A stretch of DNA of 32,257 bases from Candidatus Woesearchaeota archaeon (GTDB lineage: Archaea; Nanobdellota; Nanobdellia; Woesearchaeales; SM23-78), in contig JAFGRK010000013.1 in the NCBI GenBank assembly GCA_016935175.1, forward strand, positions 1 to 32,257, written 5' to 3'. The notes beneath the pieces were generated by a model. It was given only the letters and a program-made list of their open reading frames with translations, searched no databases and was not told where the DNA came from. Position numbers and translations under genes: made by a program. Of the stretch, positions 13,450 to 25,886 are shown one piece after another (the first letter of the stretch is position 1; each line of letters begins with the position of its first letter).

Positions 13450-14736
13450 ATGGCTAAGGGAAAACCACACATCAACCTCGTGTTCATAGGACACGTGGAC
13501 CACGGAAAATCAACAACAGTAGGTAGGCTTCTATTCGATGCAGGCATCATAGATGAGCAGGCCATGAGGAAGCTCAAGGAGAAAGCCCAGCAGCTAGGAA
13601 AGTCAGGGTTTGAGTTCGCATTTGTCATGGACAACCTGAAAGAGGAGCAGGAAAGGGGAGTCACCATTGACCTCGCGCACAAGAAGTTCGAGACTGACAA
13701 GTACTACTTCACCATAATCGACGCTCCAGGCCACAAGGACTTCATCAAGAACATGATAACAGGAACCAGCCAGGCAGACGCAGCAGTTATTGTTGTCTCA
13801 GCCAACCCTGGTGACGGAGTCCAGGCACAGACCAAGGAGCACATCTTCCTCGCAAGGACCCTAGGAGTCCAGCAAGTCATAATCCTGGTCAACAAGATGG
13901 ACATGGCCAAGTACGAGGAGAAGAGGTACAACGAGGTAAAGGACCAAGTCACAGCCCTTCTCAAGCAAGTAGGCTACAAACCAGACACCATACCATTCAT
14001 AGCAGGAGCAGCCTTCCCAGGGGACAACATCTTCAAGAAGACAGATAAGATGCCTTGGTACAAGGGGCCGATACTGGTCGAAGCCATCAATGGCTTAAGT
14101 GAGCCAGAGAAGCCAGTTGAGCTTCCACTAAGGCTGCCTATCCAGGACGTGTATAACATAACCGGGATAGGAGTGGTGCCTGTAGGAAGAATAGAGACAG
14201 GCAAGATGAAAGTCGGCGACAAGATAATTGCAGTCCCAGGAAGGGAAGGAAAAGGAGTGCCTGGAGAAGTAAAGACCATAGAGATGCATCACGAGCAGAT
14301 GCAAGAAGCACTGCCAGGGGACAACGTCGGTTTCAACGTAAGGGGCTTTGGCAAGAAAGACATAGCCAGGGGAGACGTCCTCGGGCATGAAAGTAATGTT
14401 CCAACTGTTGCGACAGAGTTCACAGCCCAGATAATAGTGCTGAACCACCCAACTGTGATGACCGTAGGCTACACTCCAGTGTTCCACATCCACACAGCAC
14501 AAGTGGCCTGCCAGATAACTGAGCTGACCAAGAAGATAAACCCGGCAACAGGAGAGACAATCCAGGAAAAGCCAGACTTCCTGAAGAATGGCGACGCAGC
14601 CATTATCAAGGTAAAGCCTGTGCAGCCATTAGTGATTGAGAAGCAAAAGGACATACCCCAGCTAGCAAGGTTCGCGGTCAGGGACTCTGGCCAGACAGTA
14701 GCCGCTGGAATGTGTATTGACCTGGTGAAGAAATAA
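13450..14736 (+). CDS. tuf: Translation elongation factor EF-1alpha
   Basis: [52 protein letters not shown] aaggaggga. Confidence 0.98.
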
Positions 14737-19002: not shown

Positions 19003-19116
19003 GAAAAAGCCGCCGCCACCTCAGCTTTCGCTTTGAACGAGAATATCTATTCGAGTGAAAAGCGATGGTGGCTTGGGCGGGGGATGCCCCCACGAGGTGC
19101 CCAAGGCGGCTTTTTC
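19003..19116 (+). ncRNA. Candidate structured ncRNA, contiguous three-way junction, family unknown; strand not certain
   Basis: GAAAAAGCCGCC(19003-19014)/GGCGGCTTTTTC(19105-19116); GCCACC(19015-20)/GGTGGC(19067-72); TTGGGC(19073-78)/GCCCAA(19099-19104); TATA atttaaat (18975-82) about 25 nt before 19003. Confidence 0.55.
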
Positions 19117-19162
19117 AGTTTCTAGCCGAATATATACTCTACTACCGAAAGATTTAAATAGT

Positions 19163-19185
19163 TAATAGTGTATTCTAAACACTAA
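19163..19185. promoter_or_regulatory. Putative NrtR operator 1
   Basis: TAGTGT-ATTCTAA-ACACTA palindrome, GT-N7-AC core, just downstream of TATA tttaaata (19153-19160). Confidence 0.7.
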
Positions 19186-19217
19186 GAAAGCCACAAAAGA
19201 TGGCTTTTCACCTTAAT

Positions 19218-19237
19218 AAGTGTCAAAAAAACACTAA
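19218..19237. promoter_or_regulatory. Putative NrtR operator 2
   Basis: AGTGT-CAAAAAA-ACACT palindrome with GT-N7-AC core, right arm ACACTAA identical to operator 1. Confidence 0.65.
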
Positions 19238-19251
19238 TGGAGGCGCACAAT

Positions 19252-20607
19252 ATGGAGCACAAACAAGACAAGACCCTTCTCACAGACCTGTATCAGCTGA
19301 CAATGCTGGCATCATACCATGACAACAACAAAGGCGAAGACACAGCCACCTTTGATCTTTTCATAAGAAAGCTGCCAGAAGACTGGGGCTACTTCATAGC
19401 CAATGGCATAGAAGACGCCATAGACTACATCACCAGCCTCAAATTTTCAGAATCAGACATAGAATACCTAAGAAAGCAGGAGTTCTTCAAGCCAGAGTTC
19501 ATAAAATACCTCAAAGACTTCAAGTTCGAAGGAGATGTGTGCGCAGTGAAAGAAGGCACGCTAATATTCCCAAACCAGCCAATAATGCGGGTGAGTGCCA
19601 AAAGGAGTCAAGCCCAATTCGTAGAATCTGCCCTCCTTAACATGATAAACTTCCAGACCATGATTACCAGCAAGACAAACAGGATTGTAAACGCGGCAAA
19701 AGAAGCCAAGATAGTTGATTACGGGCTAAGGAGAGCCCAGGAAGAAGATGCAGCAATGAAAGGAGCAAGGGCCACCTACATTGGAGGCGCAATAGGCACG
19801 AGCAATGTCAAGGCAGGCAAGGATTATGGCATAAAAATACTAGGCACGCAGGCCCACAGCTTTATCATGAGCTTTCCCTCAGAGCTAGAGGCTTTCAGGG
19901 CTTATGCCAAGACCTTCCCAAATAAAGGAACACTCCTAATCGATACATATGACACAATCCAGGGAGCAAAAAACGCAGCCATAGTAGCCAAGGAGCTGGA
20001 AAAGCAAGGAGACAGGCTGAGCGCAGTAAGGCTTGACTCAGGAGACTTATGCGACCTTTCCAAGAAAGTCAGGGAGATACTTGACAAGGAAGGCTTGCAC
20101 TATGTCAACATCGTAGCAAGCAATGACCTCAATGAATACAAGATAGAAGAGCTGAGAAAAAATGGAGCAAAAATAACAGGCTACGGGGTAGGCACAGAGA
20201 TGATAACAGCCAAACCAGTAGCAGCCGTCCCAGGAGTGTACAAGCTTGTTGAAGACAATGACGGAGCCAAGATCAAGCTTTCAGCTGAGAAAAAGACTTA
20301 CCCAGGCAAAAAGCAAGTTTACAGGATGGCAGGGGCTGATGGAAAATACTCTCATGACATTCTAGGATTGGACTTTGAGCCAATAGAAGGAACTCCGCTA
20401 CTGGAGAAAGTAGTCAAGCAAGGCAAGAGAGTGACAGCAAGGAGAAGCCTGGAAGAGATAAGGCAGTACGCGCTTGATAATGCCTCAAGATTGCCTGACC
20501 ATCTGAAAGAAGTCAAGGTGGCAAGGCACTACGAGATGAAGATATCAGAAGGATTGAGCAAGCTCATTGATAATCTCACGGATAAATATGGAAATGGAGG
20601 AAAATAA
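19252..20607 (+). CDS. pncB: Nicotinate phosphoribosyltransferase
   Basis: LLTDLYQLTMLASY, DYGLRRAQ, GTQAHSF, DTYD; ATG 19252 has SD ggagg 8 nt upstream, the tracked 19237 start lies in the operator. Confidence 0.95.
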   Translation: MEHKQDKTLLTDLYQLTMLASYHDNNKGEDTATFDLFIRKLPEDWGYFIANGIEDAIDYITSLKFSESDIEYLRKQEFFKPEFIKYLKDFKFEGDVCAVKEGTLIFPNQPIMRVSAKRSQAQFVESALLNMINFQTMITSKTNRIVNAAKEAKIVDYGLRRAQEEDAAMKGARATYIGGAIGTSNVKAGKDYGIKILGTQAHSFIMSFPSELEAFRAYAKTFPNKGTLLIDTYDTIQGAKNAAIVAKELEKQGDRLSAVRLDSGDLCDLSKKVREILDKEGLHYVNIVASNDLNEYKIEELRKNGAKITGYGVGTEMITAKPVAAVPGVYKLVEDNDGAKIKLSAEKKTYPGKKQVYRMAGADGKYSHDILGLDFEPIEGTPLLEKVVKQGKRVTARRSLEEIRQYALDNASRLPDHLKEVKVARHYEMKISEGLSKLIDNLTDKYGNGGK

Positions 20608-20608
20608 G

Positions 20609-20989
20609 ATGAAAAAGATTGAGCCAGAAAGCCTTAAGCAGCGCATTGAGACATATCTTGAGAGGGCCAAAAAGAACAGAGAAAAGGATGTGCCGTACTA
20701 TCCATTGGATCAGGTAGCAACTTATGAGATAATCGGAGGATACGACTTAGACTGGAGGCGGCAGGTAGACAACAGGTTTGTGACGGGAAAATTCATAGAC
20801 GCTCTTGTATATGCGCTTCACCAGCCTGAATTCTATGCTACCTGGTGCGATGATGATGACCTTAACAATTGCAACCATGGCTTTATCAGGAGAATGGATG
20901 ATCCAGTGCAAACCTTCAGTGCGAGGCAAATGCTTCCAACAGGAGATTATTTTGAAATAATTAAAAAATATGGGAGGGAAAAAAAATGA
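20609..20989 (+). CDS. Hypothetical protein embedded in the NAD operon
   Basis: ATG at 20609 with SD ggagg, 1 nt after the NAPRT stop, overlaps the next ORF by 4 nt. Confidence 0.8.
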   Translation: MKKIEPESLKQRIETYLERAKKNREKDVPYYPLDQVATYEIIGGYDLDWRRQVDNRFVTGKFIDALVYALHQPEFYATWCDDDDLNNCNHGFIRRMDDPVQTFSARQMLPTGDYFEIIKKYGREKK

Positions 20990-21795
20990 AAATCTTTTAC
21001 GATGTGGACACGCAACGCGACTTCATGCACACGAACGGGGCACTATATGTGCCTGGTTCTGGCAAGATTGAGTCAAACCTGGAGGAACTAACAAATTTTG
21101 CAAGGATAGAGAGAATACCCATCTGGGGAAGCATGGACAGGCACTTTGAGAATGACCCTGAGCTCAAGAGAAATGGCGGACCATTCCCAGACCACTGCAT
21201 GAATGGCGCTACAGGTCAAAAACTTGTGGCTGAAACCAATTATGACGTGATAGATGTAGATATGGGGTATGCAACCAAGGTTATCCCGCACAAAGTATCG
21301 GAAAATCAAACCTATGACTGGAATCCCCAAAGGCTTTTTGGGGTTGTAAGACTTTTCCAGGCGGCGAGTGTAATGAATTACATGCGGGGAGTTAAAATAC
21401 TGATTCAAAGAGGGCCCAACATAATATTTGAGAAACAAGCAAATGATGTATTCACTAACCCGGCTGCAGAAAAGCTAATGCGCGCTCTTGAAGTCAAAGA
21501 AGCAGTCGTGTACGGAGTCGCAACAGACTATTGTGTTAAGGATGCTGTTCTCGGCATGCAAAAGAGAGGAATCCAATGTTACGTTGTGAAGGACGCCATT
21601 GCAGCAGTTACTACTAAAACCGGAAAAGCTGCGCTTGAAAAAATGGTAAAAGCAGGAGCAAAGCTAGTCAAGACTAAAGATGTGTTAAAGAATATGATGA
21701 AATGGGATTTACCTGATTATACGACATGGTTGAGTAAAGAAAAAGAAAGAGAACCCGATAAAAGTGGGCTCGTTGAATGGTTTGAGACAAAATAA
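20986..21795 (+). CDS. pncA: Nicotinamidase / isochorismatase-family amidohydrolase
   Basis: FYDVDTQRDFM, SMDRH, FPDHCMNGATG, EKQANDVF, VYGVATDYCVKDAVLGM (catalytic Asp/Lys/Cys context). Confidence 0.9.
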   Translation: MKIFYDVDTQRDFMHTNGALYVPGSGKIESNLEELTNFARIERIPIWGSMDRHFENDPELKRNGGPFPDHCMNGATGQKLVAETNYDVIDVDMGYATKVIPHKVSENQTYDWNPQRLFGVVRLFQAASVMNYMRGVKILIQRGPNIIFEKQANDVFTNPAAEKLMRALEVKEAVVYGVATDYCVKDAVLGMQKRGIQCYVVKDAIAAVTTKTGKAALEKMVKAGAKLVKTKDVLKNMMKWDLPDYTTWLSKEKEREPDKSGLVEWFETK

Positions 21796-21810
21796 GAAAA
21801 GGTGATAATC

Positions 21811-22725
21811 ATGGGTGGAAATGCATTGGAAGACAGAATCAAGCTAGCAAAGATGAACCCTGAACTAGTAGCAAGCCAGATAGAGGATTTCATAATCAGG
21901 GAAATTGAGCAGTGCGGATACGGCGGCGTGGTTATAGGGCTTTCAGGAGGAGTAGACTCAACAGTCACAGCAGCCTTGGCCAAGAGGGCTTTTGACAGGT
22001 ACAACCATGCTCACCCTGACCAGCCACTGGAAGTAAAGGCTTACCTGCTTCCAGCACATACCAATGACCCTATAGACACTAGTGATGGAGTCAAGGCTGC
22101 AGAGCAGCTCAAGATAGATTATGAGCTTTTAAGCATCCAGCCTGTTATTGATTCTTACAAAGCCACTAACCCTGAGGCTTTTGAGAGCAACTATCATAAG
22201 GGTAATCTCATGTCAAGGATAAGGTCTAACATACTTTCTACCAAGGCAGCCACTGAGCAAAAGCTTGTGATAGGCACTGGCAACAAGGACGAGGACTTCG
22301 GTGTAGGCTACTATACTCTTTTTGGAGACGGGGCAGTGCACCTGAGCCCAATAGGAGGGCTTCATAAGAGGCTGGTGAGGGAAATGGCTCGCTACCTCGG
22401 GTTTGCAGGCATTGCAGACAGGATGCCAACTGCTGGCCTTGAGCCATGCCAGACTGACTTCAAAGACTTAGGCTACAAGTATGAAACTGTAGAGCTTGTC
22501 ATGGAAGGGTTGCGCCAAGGGTTCACTTGGAAGCAATTGCCAAAGCATAGCCAAGTGGTTGAATACGCAAAAAACGACATGAAAGAATATGCAAGGCTCT
22601 ATGGCAAGAGCAAGTTTAGCACTGTCAAGGCAATGGTGGAAGACATAAACAAGAGGAACAAGATAGCTAAAAAAAAGGCGCAGATAGTCAACCCCCCAAA
22701 GCCAATAATAACTTTGGAGTATTAG
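21811..22725 (+). CDS. nadE: NAD synthase (NH3-dependent type)
   Basis: PP-loop GLSGGVDSTVTAAL, IGTGNKDEDFGVGYYTLFGDGAVHLSPIGGLHK. Confidence 0.96.
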   Translation: MGGNALEDRIKLAKMNPELVASQIEDFIIREIEQCGYGGVVIGLSGGVDSTVTAALAKRAFDRYNHAHPDQPLEVKAYLLPAHTNDPIDTSDGVKAAEQLKIDYELLSIQPVIDSYKATNPEAFESNYHKGNLMSRIRSNILSTKAATEQKLVIGTGNKDEDFGVGYYTLFGDGAVHLSPIGGLHKRLVREMARYLGFAGIADRMPTAGLEPCQTDFKDLGYKYETVELVMEGLRQGFTWKQLPKHSQVVEYAKNDMKEYARLYGKSKFSTVKAMVEDINKRNKIAKKKAQIVNPPKPIITLEY

Positions 22726-22766: not shown

Positions 22767-23678
22767 ATGAAACAAAAAAAAGGATTGATCATCGGAAAGT
22801 TTGAAGTTGTCCACCAAGGCCATGTCGATCTATTCACACAAGTGTCAGGGCGCAAGGACATAAGCCAAATAATAGCCGCGATAACAAGCAACAAGAAAAA
22901 TATATTCTCATGGGAAGAGAGAAAGAGCATGATAGAGCAAGCAGCAAATAGAATGAAGAAGCCTTTTGTGTTCTACAATGTGCCTGATATCAACAACCCA
23001 CCAATGTATGCAGAACATGTAAGGAGGATTATAGGCTTGCCTTCACTTGATGAGGTTGTGCTTTTCACAGGCAACCCTTACACTTCTAACTGCTTCAACG
23101 GCAAGTGCGGAATTGAAACCATCATGATTAAAACCCCTTATAGCTCCTCAAGGTTGCTGGAGATGATAGGCTCTGATGACAATGGCTGGGAAAAATTAGT
23201 GCCGAAATCAACAAAGAGGTTCATCTATGGACATAATGGCGTTGAGAGGATTAAGGAGCACTTCAACAAGGTCCCAGGCCCTCACAAGTTCCCTCGCCTG
23301 GCAACTGACATAATCATAGAATACCAAGGAGGAGTTGTACTTATTGAAAGGAAGAATGAGCCTTTTGGCTGGGCCATGCCAGGTGGCTACCACGAGCTAG
23401 GCTTGTCAGCAGAGAAAAACGCTGCAAAAGAGGCAAAAGAAGAGACAAGCCTTGACATTAATGTCAAGTACTTGCTTGGCTTTTACAGCGATCCAAAAAG
23501 GGATGTCAGGGCACACACAGCATCTGCTGTCTTTGTCGCAGATGGTCATGGAGCACTAAAAGCTGATGATGATGCAAAGGATGCCAGGGTATTCAAGAAA
23601 GAGGAAGTGCCTTGGGAAAAGCTTGCGTTTGACCATGCCAGGATAATCAAGGATTATTACGATAAAAAAGATACTTAG
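22767..23678 (+). CDS. nadM: Archaeal-type nicotinamide/nicotinate mononucleotide adenylyltransferase fused to a Nudix domain
   Basis: GKFEVVHQGHVDLF, SWEERKSMI, SSSRLLEMI; then Nudix-like AMPGGYHELGLSAEKNAAKEAKEETSLDI and KLAFDHARIIKDYY. Confidence 0.88.
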   Translation: MKQKKGLIIGKFEVVHQGHVDLFTQVSGRKDISQIIAAITSNKKNIFSWEERKSMIEQAANRMKKPFVFYNVPDINNPPMYAEHVRRIIGLPSLDEVVLFTGNPYTSNCFNGKCGIETIMIKTPYSSSRLLEMIGSDDNGWEKLVPKSTKRFIYGHNGVERIKEHFNKVPGPHKFPRLATDIIIEYQGGVVLIERKNEPFGWAMPGGYHELGLSAEKNAAKEAKEETSLDINVKYLLGFYSDPKRDVRAHTASAVFVADGHGALKADDDAKDARVFKKEEVPWEKLAFDHARIIKDYYDKKDT

Positions 23679-23800
23679 GAAAATTCAGGCTTAAGCATAG
23701 CCAAACTCTTTGCCAGTTATCAATATGAAAAAAATCAGGGCTAGATAGTCAAGGAGATAAGCAAGCTGATTGATTTTTCCCCCATGACAAAATTTATAAA

Positions 23801-23820
23801 TAATGTATGCCATACACTAA
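23801..23820. promoter_or_regulatory. Putative NrtR operator 3 at the nrtR promoter
   Basis: TAATGT-ATGCCAT-ACACTAA, GT-N7-AC core, directly downstream of TATA tttataaa (23793-23800). Confidence 0.6.
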
Positions 23821-23864
23821 CTTCTATGGGTGAGGATGACATTAGTAAAAAGAATGAAGGAGCA

Positions 23865-25019
23865 ATGAATTCTGTCGATATAATCTTTGACATAAACGGC
23901 AAAGAGGTGCTGCTTGTGAAAAGAAAAGCAGAGCCTTACAAAGGCTACTGGGGCCTTCCTGGAGGCAAGCAAGAGCCATTTGAGAAATTGGAGAGCGCAG
24001 TAGTGCGAGTGCTAAAGCAAAGGCTCAACCTTGATGTTAGCGGAGACTTTTCCCAGATGCCCAATGTATTGGTGTTCAATGAGCTGAAAAAAGAGGCAGA
24101 GCTCCACCAGATAAGGACATATGACTCAGGAGCAGACCCAAGAGGAGGCAACACAACTGTGTTTGCCATCCAGCTGCACATTTCACCTGAAAAGCTTATG
24201 AAAGTGATTAAGCCAGGATTCAAAGTGGCAGAAGTAAAGCTGGTGAGCAAGCAAGAGCTTCCTAAGCTGGCATTTGACCACCTGAAATTCATAAACGACT
24301 ATTATAAGTACCTCAAGCCTTACAAGGACAGCGCCAAGACTTATGACTCAAGCAAGTATGAGAAGCCTTCTGTGACAGCAGACATGCTGATATTCACCAT
24401 AAGAAACAATGAGCTGCAAGTGTTGCTGATAAAGAGAAAGTCCTGGCCTTTCAAGGGTATGTGGGCAATACCAGGAGGGTTTGTGGGGCTGAACGAGCCT
24501 ATTGATGAGGCTGCAAAGCGAGAATTGCTAGAGGAGACAGGAGTGAAGGATGTGTATCTTGAGCAGCTCTACACCTTTGGAAAGCCAGAAAGAGACCCAA
24601 GGACAAGGGTGATAACCATCGCATATTATGCACTCATATCCTCTGCTAATGTGAAGCTAGAGGCTTCCACCGACGCTGCAGATGTGGCATGGCTGCCAGT
24701 TGACAATATCCCCAAGCTCGCATTTGACCACAACGAGATAGTCGACTACGCCATAAGCAGGATAAGGAACAAGATTGAGTACACTAACATCGCGTTCCAG
24801 CTCCTTCCGGAAAAGTTCACCTTGAGTGAGCTGCAGAAAGTGTATGAGGTAATCCTTGGAAAAAAGCTTGATAAGAGGAATTTCCGCAAGAAAGTCAAGG
24901 AAACAAGAGTGCTTATCCCTTCGAAGGACTACAAGATGGAAGGGGCGCACAGGCCTGCGCAGCTTTTCTCCTTCAAGGAAAAAGGCCAGAGCATACTTAA
25001 GGCTAGCAAGAAAGTGTGA
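23865..25019 (+). CDS. nrtR: NrtR-like transcriptional regulator with tandem Nudix domains and C-terminal winged helix
   Basis: Degenerate Nudix 1, canonical Nudix 2 GFVGLNEPIDEAAKRELLEETGV, NrtR-type C-terminus AFQLLPEKFTLSELQKVYEVILGKKLDKRNFRKK. ATG 23865 has SD gaaggag; ATG 23826 is an alternative; tracked 23784 would precede the TATA. Confidence 0.88.
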   Translation: MNSVDIIFDINGKEVLLVKRKAEPYKGYWGLPGGKQEPFEKLESAVVRVLKQRLNLDVSGDFSQMPNVLVFNELKKEAELHQIRTYDSGADPRGGNTTVFAIQLHISPEKLMKVIKPGFKVAEVKLVSKQELPKLAFDHLKFINDYYKYLKPYKDSAKTYDSSKYEKPSVTADMLIFTIRNNELQVLLIKRKSWPFKGMWAIPGGFVGLNEPIDEAAKRELLEETGVKDVYLEQLYTFGKPERDPRTRVITIAYYALISSANVKLEASTDAADVAWLPVDNIPKLAFDHNEIVDYAISRIRNKIEYTNIAFQLLPEKFTLSELQKVYEVILGKKLDKRNFRKKVKETRVLIPSKDYKMEGAHRPAQLFSFKEKGQSILKASKKV

Positions 25020-25331: not shown

Positions 25332-25886
25332 ATGAAAAAGCCCGATCTTAACTTTCCGAAACTGACAAGTAATGAGAAGATAGTCCTGAAGAAAATCATT
25401 GGCCAAGCTAAGATACCTGACTTGGAAATAGCCAAAAAAATAGGGCTTTCGCAGCAAGCCATCTTCAAGATAAGGCATAAGCTGGAGAATGTCGGCATAA
25501 TCAAAGGATATGCTCCTGTCATAGATTATAAGAAGATAGGTATTGAGGCCTTGGTCGTGCTTGGCGTGAGATTCACTCAGTACATCTGGAACAAATACTC
25601 AGAGGATGAGATCGCTGAGAAGATACTGAAGATTCCGCAAGTGATAACTGCCTATCGCATCCCTGAAGCAAGGATATCCCACCTGCTGGTCATGGGATTC
25701 AGGAATATAGATGATAAGGACAGGTACATGATGAGGCTGCAGAGCAAATATTCAAGAGAGATTGAGATAGTCAATGTCTATCCTTTCTCAGTGGATAGAA
25801 TCATCAAAAACAACCATATCGGCCTGCTAAACACCATCCTTAACCCAAAGGAAGCCTTCTCAAATGATTTTTTCCTGGATAAATAG
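25332..25886 (+). CDS. Lrp/AsnC-like winged-helix transcriptional regulator
   Basis: KLTSNEKIVLKKIIGQAKIPDLEIAKKIGLSQQAIFKIRHKLENVGIIKGYAPVIDYKKIGIEALVVLGV. Confidence 0.75.
   Translation: MKKPDLNFPKLTSNEKIVLKKIIGQAKIPDLEIAKKIGLSQQAIFKIRHKLENVGIIKGYAPVIDYKKIGIEALVVLGVRFTQYIWNKYSEDEIAEKILKIPQVITAYRIPEARISHLLVMGFRNIDDKDRYMMRLQSKYSREIEIVNVYPFSVDRIIKNNHIGLLNTILNPKEAFSNDFFLDK

Follow-up and report, generated by a model that had tools for sequence, protein, structure and literature searches.

The NAD Salvage Operon and Its Palindromic Sites

The window, that is, the whole stretch of 32,257 nucleotides analyzed here, carries on its forward strand an operon with the gene order NAPRT, 140-aa protein, PncA candidate, NadE, NadM-Nudix and, as the last gene, nrtR, together with three palindromic sites that are termed O1, O2, and O3 in the following.

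19145-19152, + strand: BRE-like element CCGAAAGA; its CGAAA just 5' of the TATA box is kept in most relatives' NAD promoters
19153-19160, + strand: TATA box TTTAAATA of the NAD operon promoter, read from the sequence
19165-19185, no strand: predicted operator O1, ATAGTGTATTCTAAACACTAA, with arms ATAGTGT and ACACTAA around ATTCTAA; overlaps the predicted transcription start site (TSS) and is kept in relatives
19186-19209, + strand: hairpin of GAAAGCC (19186-19192) and GGCTTTTC (19202-19209) at the predicted mRNA 5' end; -7.9 kcal/mol, z -4.0
19217-19237, no strand: predicted operator O2, TAAGTGTCAAAAAAACACTAA, with arms TAAGTGT and ACACTAA around CAAAAAA; in the leader, just 5' of the Shine-Dalgarno (SD) sequence
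19239-19243, + strand: SD sequence GGAGG of NAPRT, directly 3' of O2; same layout in the relative G006
19252-20607, + strand: nicotinate phosphoribosyltransferase (NAPRT, pncB); NF006696, 565 bits
20567-20989, + strand: co-operonic 140-aa protein; relatives lie directly behind operators in G003 and G046
20986-21795, + strand: isochorismatase-fold protein, probable nicotinamidase PncA; PF00857, weak NF008623 match
21802-22725, + strand: NAD synthetase NadE; PF02540, TIGR00552 above cut-off
22767-23678, + strand: NMN adenylyltransferase-Nudix fusion (NadM-Nudix); PF01467 and PF00293
23793-23800, + strand: TATA box TTTATAAA of the internal nrtR promoter, with O3 directly behind
23800-23820, no strand: predicted operator O3, ATAATGTATGCCATACACTAA, with arms ATAATGT and ACACTAA around ATGCCAT; nrtR promoter, same site in G002, G003, and G006
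23826-25019, + strand: nrtR, 397 aa, comprising a degenerate Nudix domain, an intact Nudix domain, and the NrtR winged helix; PF21906 4e-26, fold matches 5bs6 and 3gz6

For NAPRT, the start codon ATG at 19252 is preferred over 19237 because of the SD sequence and the reading frame in G006. The listed start of the nrtR open reading frame at 23784 is probably wrong, as O3 and its TATA box would then be coding; with the ATG at 23826, the gap between operator and start is short and similar in three same-genus relatives. The 140-aa protein has no match in Pfam or NCBIfam and may act in NAD metabolism, given that its relatives adjoin NrtR operators (G003 L122 5968 and G046 L060 7520). In G006 (L054, 7830-8811), the same promoter and operators are followed by a first gene whose product is only 22 % identical to NAPRT over 300 aa; the enzyme has apparently been exchanged while the promoter was kept.

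The sequence-only reading of this DNA had described two palindromes with 7-nt centers, the first downstream of the TATA box at 19153-19160 and overlapping the expected TSS, the second ending just before the SD sequence. Both are present in promoter and leader exactly in this arrangement, and O3 adds a third operator that was absent from that reading. In the window, GTGTN7ACAC occurs three times versus 0.12 times expected from shuffles, the third match (13480-13494) lying inside an EF-1A-like open reading frame (13450-14736) and lacking the outer bases. The longer AGTGTN7ACACT has exactly two matches in the entire genome (1,223,909 bases, 35 contigs), namely O1 and O2, and its reversed-pattern control has one; the genome scan that had been proposed as a check thus showed that random positions rarely carry the motif (two matches in 1.22 Mb). 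O3 surfaces as the third site once two mismatches or fewer to TWAGTGTN7ACACTWA are allowed. Near NAD genes of this genome, a search for a wider regulon yielded only O1, O2, and O3, and the remaining one-mismatch matches (contig C22) do not exceed chance expectation.

The Regulator NrtR

The product of the last gene scores above cut-off with both PF00293 and PF21906 (E 4e-26), that is, with a Nudix domain and the NrtR winged helix. Against NF050029 (NtrR equivalog) it reaches 226.6 bits versus a cut-off of 400, a model that is a narrow equivalog and not a definition of the NrtR family. In an AlphaFold2 model (mean pLDDT 80.7), a winged helix accompanies two Nudix folds; among solved structures, BtAraR (5bs6) and DNA-bound Shewanella NrtR (3gz6) match its fold best. 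As read from the translation, the Nudix box is degenerate in the first domain (GKQEPFEKLESAVVRVLKQRLNL) and canonical in the second (GFVGLNEPIDEAAKRELLEETGV), and hydrolase activity is predicted from the intact second box. Among the sequences examined, the extra N-terminal Nudix domain was found only in the window's genus (G000, which is the window's genome, G002, G003, and G006). A free-standing Nudix gene located after the NAD genes of G009 is 37-38 % identical to this domain, which suggests that the double-Nudix NrtR arose by gene fusion.

The recognition helix DKRNFRK is invariant across the aligned relatives and identical in BtAraR. In the BtAraR-DNA crystal, which contains the duplex GTGT-TACTTTT-ACAC, the helix residues Lys179, Arg180, Asn181, and Lys184 read GTGT, with Lys179 contacting G7, Arg180 placed between T8 and G9, Asn181 contacting A18, and Lys184 contacting T10 (PMC4666351). 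The shared helix therefore lends direct structural support to the GT-N7-AC argument, via a sister branch and not NrtR itself.

Conservation of Sites and Regulator

PF21906 was detected in 14 of 59 genomes (relatives, the window's genome included); across the phylum, 35 of 279 sampled genomes carry it. Perfect 21-mers of the operator number 14 (the G013 sites in this count were taken from a separate site listing) and are distributed over nine of the 14 NrtR-positive genomes, as compared to none in the 45 NrtR-negative ones (p ~1e-7). Sites with one mismatch amount to 2.57 per Mb with NrtR versus 0.54 without, and the reversed-pattern control to 1.46 versus 1.13. Within -300 to +20 of a NAD or nrtR gene, 29 of 36 NrtR-positive genomes have a site (two mismatches or fewer) and none of the 36 has one for the reversed control, which is the fair yardstick rather than the raw fraction, because the fetched loci were picked partly for holding sites or NrtR; in the other seven, no site was found within this interval. 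Broken down by gene, sites precede NAPRT in 13/20 cases, NrtR in 17/37, PncA in 6/25, NadE in 2/25, and NadM in 0/30, the few or missing sites at the last three being expected for internal operon genes. The phylogenetic footprinting that the sequence-only reading had called for hence came out in its favor, the motif being retained by relatives ahead of their NAD and nrtR genes.

NrtR co-occurs with an above-cut-off NAPRT in eight of nine NAPRT-positive relatives and is thus linked to NAD genes. In G049 (85 % complete), NAPRT is strong, and neither NrtR nor an operator site was detected. A recognizable NAPRT is missing as well from most NrtR-lacking relatives (G001-G058), so that NrtR and NAD salvage seem to have been gained or lost together.

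Beyond the archaeal relatives, 45 sites with one mismatch or fewer, versus one for the reversed control, turned up in a set of 80 loci around the best NrtR relatives, which are mainly bacterial with a few archaea, and many of these sites lie 120 bp or less upstream of nrtR. The sites at bacterial nrtR loci indicate that the operator code is shared with bacterial NrtRs of several phyla. The assignment of GT-N7-AC to NrtR-type operators, on which the sequence-only reading had relied, accordingly holds up, with a cognate NrtR in the same operon and sites conserved both in relatives and at bacterial nrtR genes. In the NrtR tree, archaeal and bacterial sequences are intermingled, which suggests transfer between the domains; its direction cannot be called, as the backbone of the tree is not resolved. 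An earlier NrtR survey had a search scope that at least included archaeal sequences (PMC6800001), a Sulfolobus study calls NrtR bacterial (PMC10311068), and a limited literature search retrieved no article dealing with an NrtR regulon in archaea.

Archaea also have a second NrtR-like branch at 33-38 % identity, a clade of its own that is set deeply apart (G046:C31, G009:C80, G187:C12, G107:C2, and G220:C4); no such operators were found in the fetched flanking DNA of its members.

Register to the TATA Box and Tandem Spacing

Counted from the start of the TATA box to the first operator base, O1 lies at a distance of 12 bp and O3 at 7 bp, the latter resembling the nrtR promoters of G002 and G006. 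Among 55 operators with a TATA box in reach, this distance is 11-12 bp in 29 (exactly 12 bp in 23) and 7-8 bp in 16. With the usual archaeal distance between TATA box and start, O1 spans about -20 to +1, a position that fits repression by blocking the polymerase. The start sites are predicted near 19183 for the NAD operon and near 23824 for nrtR.

O1 and O2 are spaced by about 52-53 bp, and tandem partners 52-55 bp apart recur in families f1, f2, f41, f52, f55, and f57; spacings of 22, 43, 64, and 85 bp were seen elsewhere. Helical phasing could not be established as a general rule: the Rayleigh p of 0.0004 for all pairs rises to ~0.16 once the related pairs at 52-55 bp count as one.

Proposed Mechanism and the Question of the Effector

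From the computed sites, the regulator with its matching recognition helix, the conservation, and the TATA register, we infer that O1, O2, and O3 are very probably operators for the NrtR whose gene closes the operon, and that NrtR blocks initiation there. A dimer would insert one recognition helix into each GTGT half. Bound to O1, between TATA box and start site, it would prevent the engagement of TBP/TFB by RNA polymerase, and on O2, in the leader, it may act as a second block or cooperate with O1. Occupation of O3 in the promoter of nrtR itself would limit the synthesis of NrtR, a predicted autoregulation. Upon NAD turnover, the Nudix part would take up ADP-ribose (or a nucleotide related to it), which would probably release NrtR, upon which the salvage genes for NAPRT, PncA, NadE, and NadM would be expressed.

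The most serious competitor, appreciably less likely than this scheme, leaves the operators with NrtR and assigns it another effector, such as ATP, NAD, or a sugar nucleotide, or else a partly activating role. The family does vary in this respect, with Corynebacterium NdnR responding to NAD and BtAraR to L-arabinose (PMC4666351), and the effector may not be ADP-ribose, given the NF050029 score below cut-off and an arabinose-responsive AraR as the closest solved relative. The extra N-terminal Nudix domain, with its degenerate box next to the canonical C-terminal one, could furthermore add a ligand. However, the position of an operator at the predicted TSS agrees with repression, and the targets are NAD salvage genes, as with ADP-ribose-responsive NrtRs; control of arabinose genes as in the AraR branch was not observed, the targets found being NAD genes, with no further exact site in the genome.

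Leader Structure and Other Readings

A hairpin between the two sites had also been pointed out from the sequence. It does exist, with the energy listed above, and strong hairpins between the sites occur in G000, G003, G007, and G045; the role implied for it found no support, as a conserved leader hairpin had to be rejected, with none at the matching position in G002, G046, and G057. A search of the leader against Rfam gave only a sub-threshold miRNA model. That the palindromes are instead RNA elements, with leader hairpins (the O2 stem AGUGU/ACACU and the GAAAGCC hairpin) controlling translation or attenuation, is very improbable: both stems can pair in the window, but the O2 sequence of relatives, TAAGTGT...ACAATAA, disrupts the stem and keeps the DNA half-site, O1 and O3 are next to TATA boxes and mostly outside the predicted mRNA, and the presence of sites follows that of NrtR.

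Still less credence can be given to another regulator binding the sites, for example, the Lrp/AsnC-like protein encoded downstream at 25332-25886, a regulator gene with weak Lrp matches, since the sites co-occur with PF21906 across genomes and the NrtR recognition helix matches that of a crystallized GTGT reader. Chance palindromes, conceivable in AT-rich intergenic DNA such as this leader, have a negligible probability with both genome-wide AGTGTN7ACACT matches in one leader and sites conserved across families and the class, as the footprinting revealed.

Upstream of the promoter, positions 19003-19116 (+ strand) contain a strongly structured three-way-junction element (MFE -62.2, z -6.35). 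Searched with a covariance model built from its 3' arm, the 1.22 Mb genome yields 41 copies, G006 67, and G009 35, and 16 of 59 relatives have matches. The closing stem of the copies varies on both sides, the middle arm is hypervariable, a T-run follows at the 3' end, and some copies are opposite-strand neighbors. With no match in Rfam, these copies may belong to a family of non-coding RNAs or represent a REP/MITE-like element.

Implications

Operators for the operon's own NrtR amount to a bacterial-type NAD regulon, with regulator and operator code together, on archaeal TATA promoters in DPANN-type archaea. The fixed register to TATA box and start codon would make it a case of a transcription factor shared with bacteria that has been fitted to the archaeal machinery, and the regulon predicts which small-genome archaea control NAD salvage themselves. 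A bolder and rather doubtful extension holds that the phased tandem pair (about five turns) lets two NrtR dimers act cooperatively or form a loop over the start site while the double-Nudix NrtR integrates two nucleotide signals; if true, phased operators and double-Nudix NrtR would represent an archaeal redesign of the bacterial switch.

Comparison with Known Systems

The NrtR family and the operator type are already known, and the mechanism as such is an ordinary one, here unusually well supported and placed in archaea, where it was less expected; new are the fit to archaeal promoters, the tandem layout, and the double-Nudix NrtR. Bacterial NrtR regulons were reportedly described by Rodionov in 2008, and Shewanella NrtR (3gz5/3gz6), MsNrtR, and the NrtRs of S. 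suis and S. sobrinus are said to belong to the same group. Common to these regulons and the present one are the Nudix plus winged-helix architecture, the linkage to NAD salvage, a palindrome of ~21 bp with a 7-nt center, and autoregulation (here predicted), whereas the archaeal TATA/BRE promoter, the tandem operators at TSS and SD sequence, the additional N-terminal Nudix domain (in the genus), and the salvage-only operon set the present system apart. Bacteroides BtAraR (5bs6 family) shares the helix DKRNFRK(R/K) and the GTGT-N7-ACAC operator, with tandem sites at its araM, but controls arabinose genes, answers to L-arabinose, and has one Nudix domain. Agrobacterium NadQ (7q91-7q94), another NAD-related regulator, gives a longer fold alignment (about 280-290 columns) and is similar in the winged helix, yet at an identity of about 20 %.
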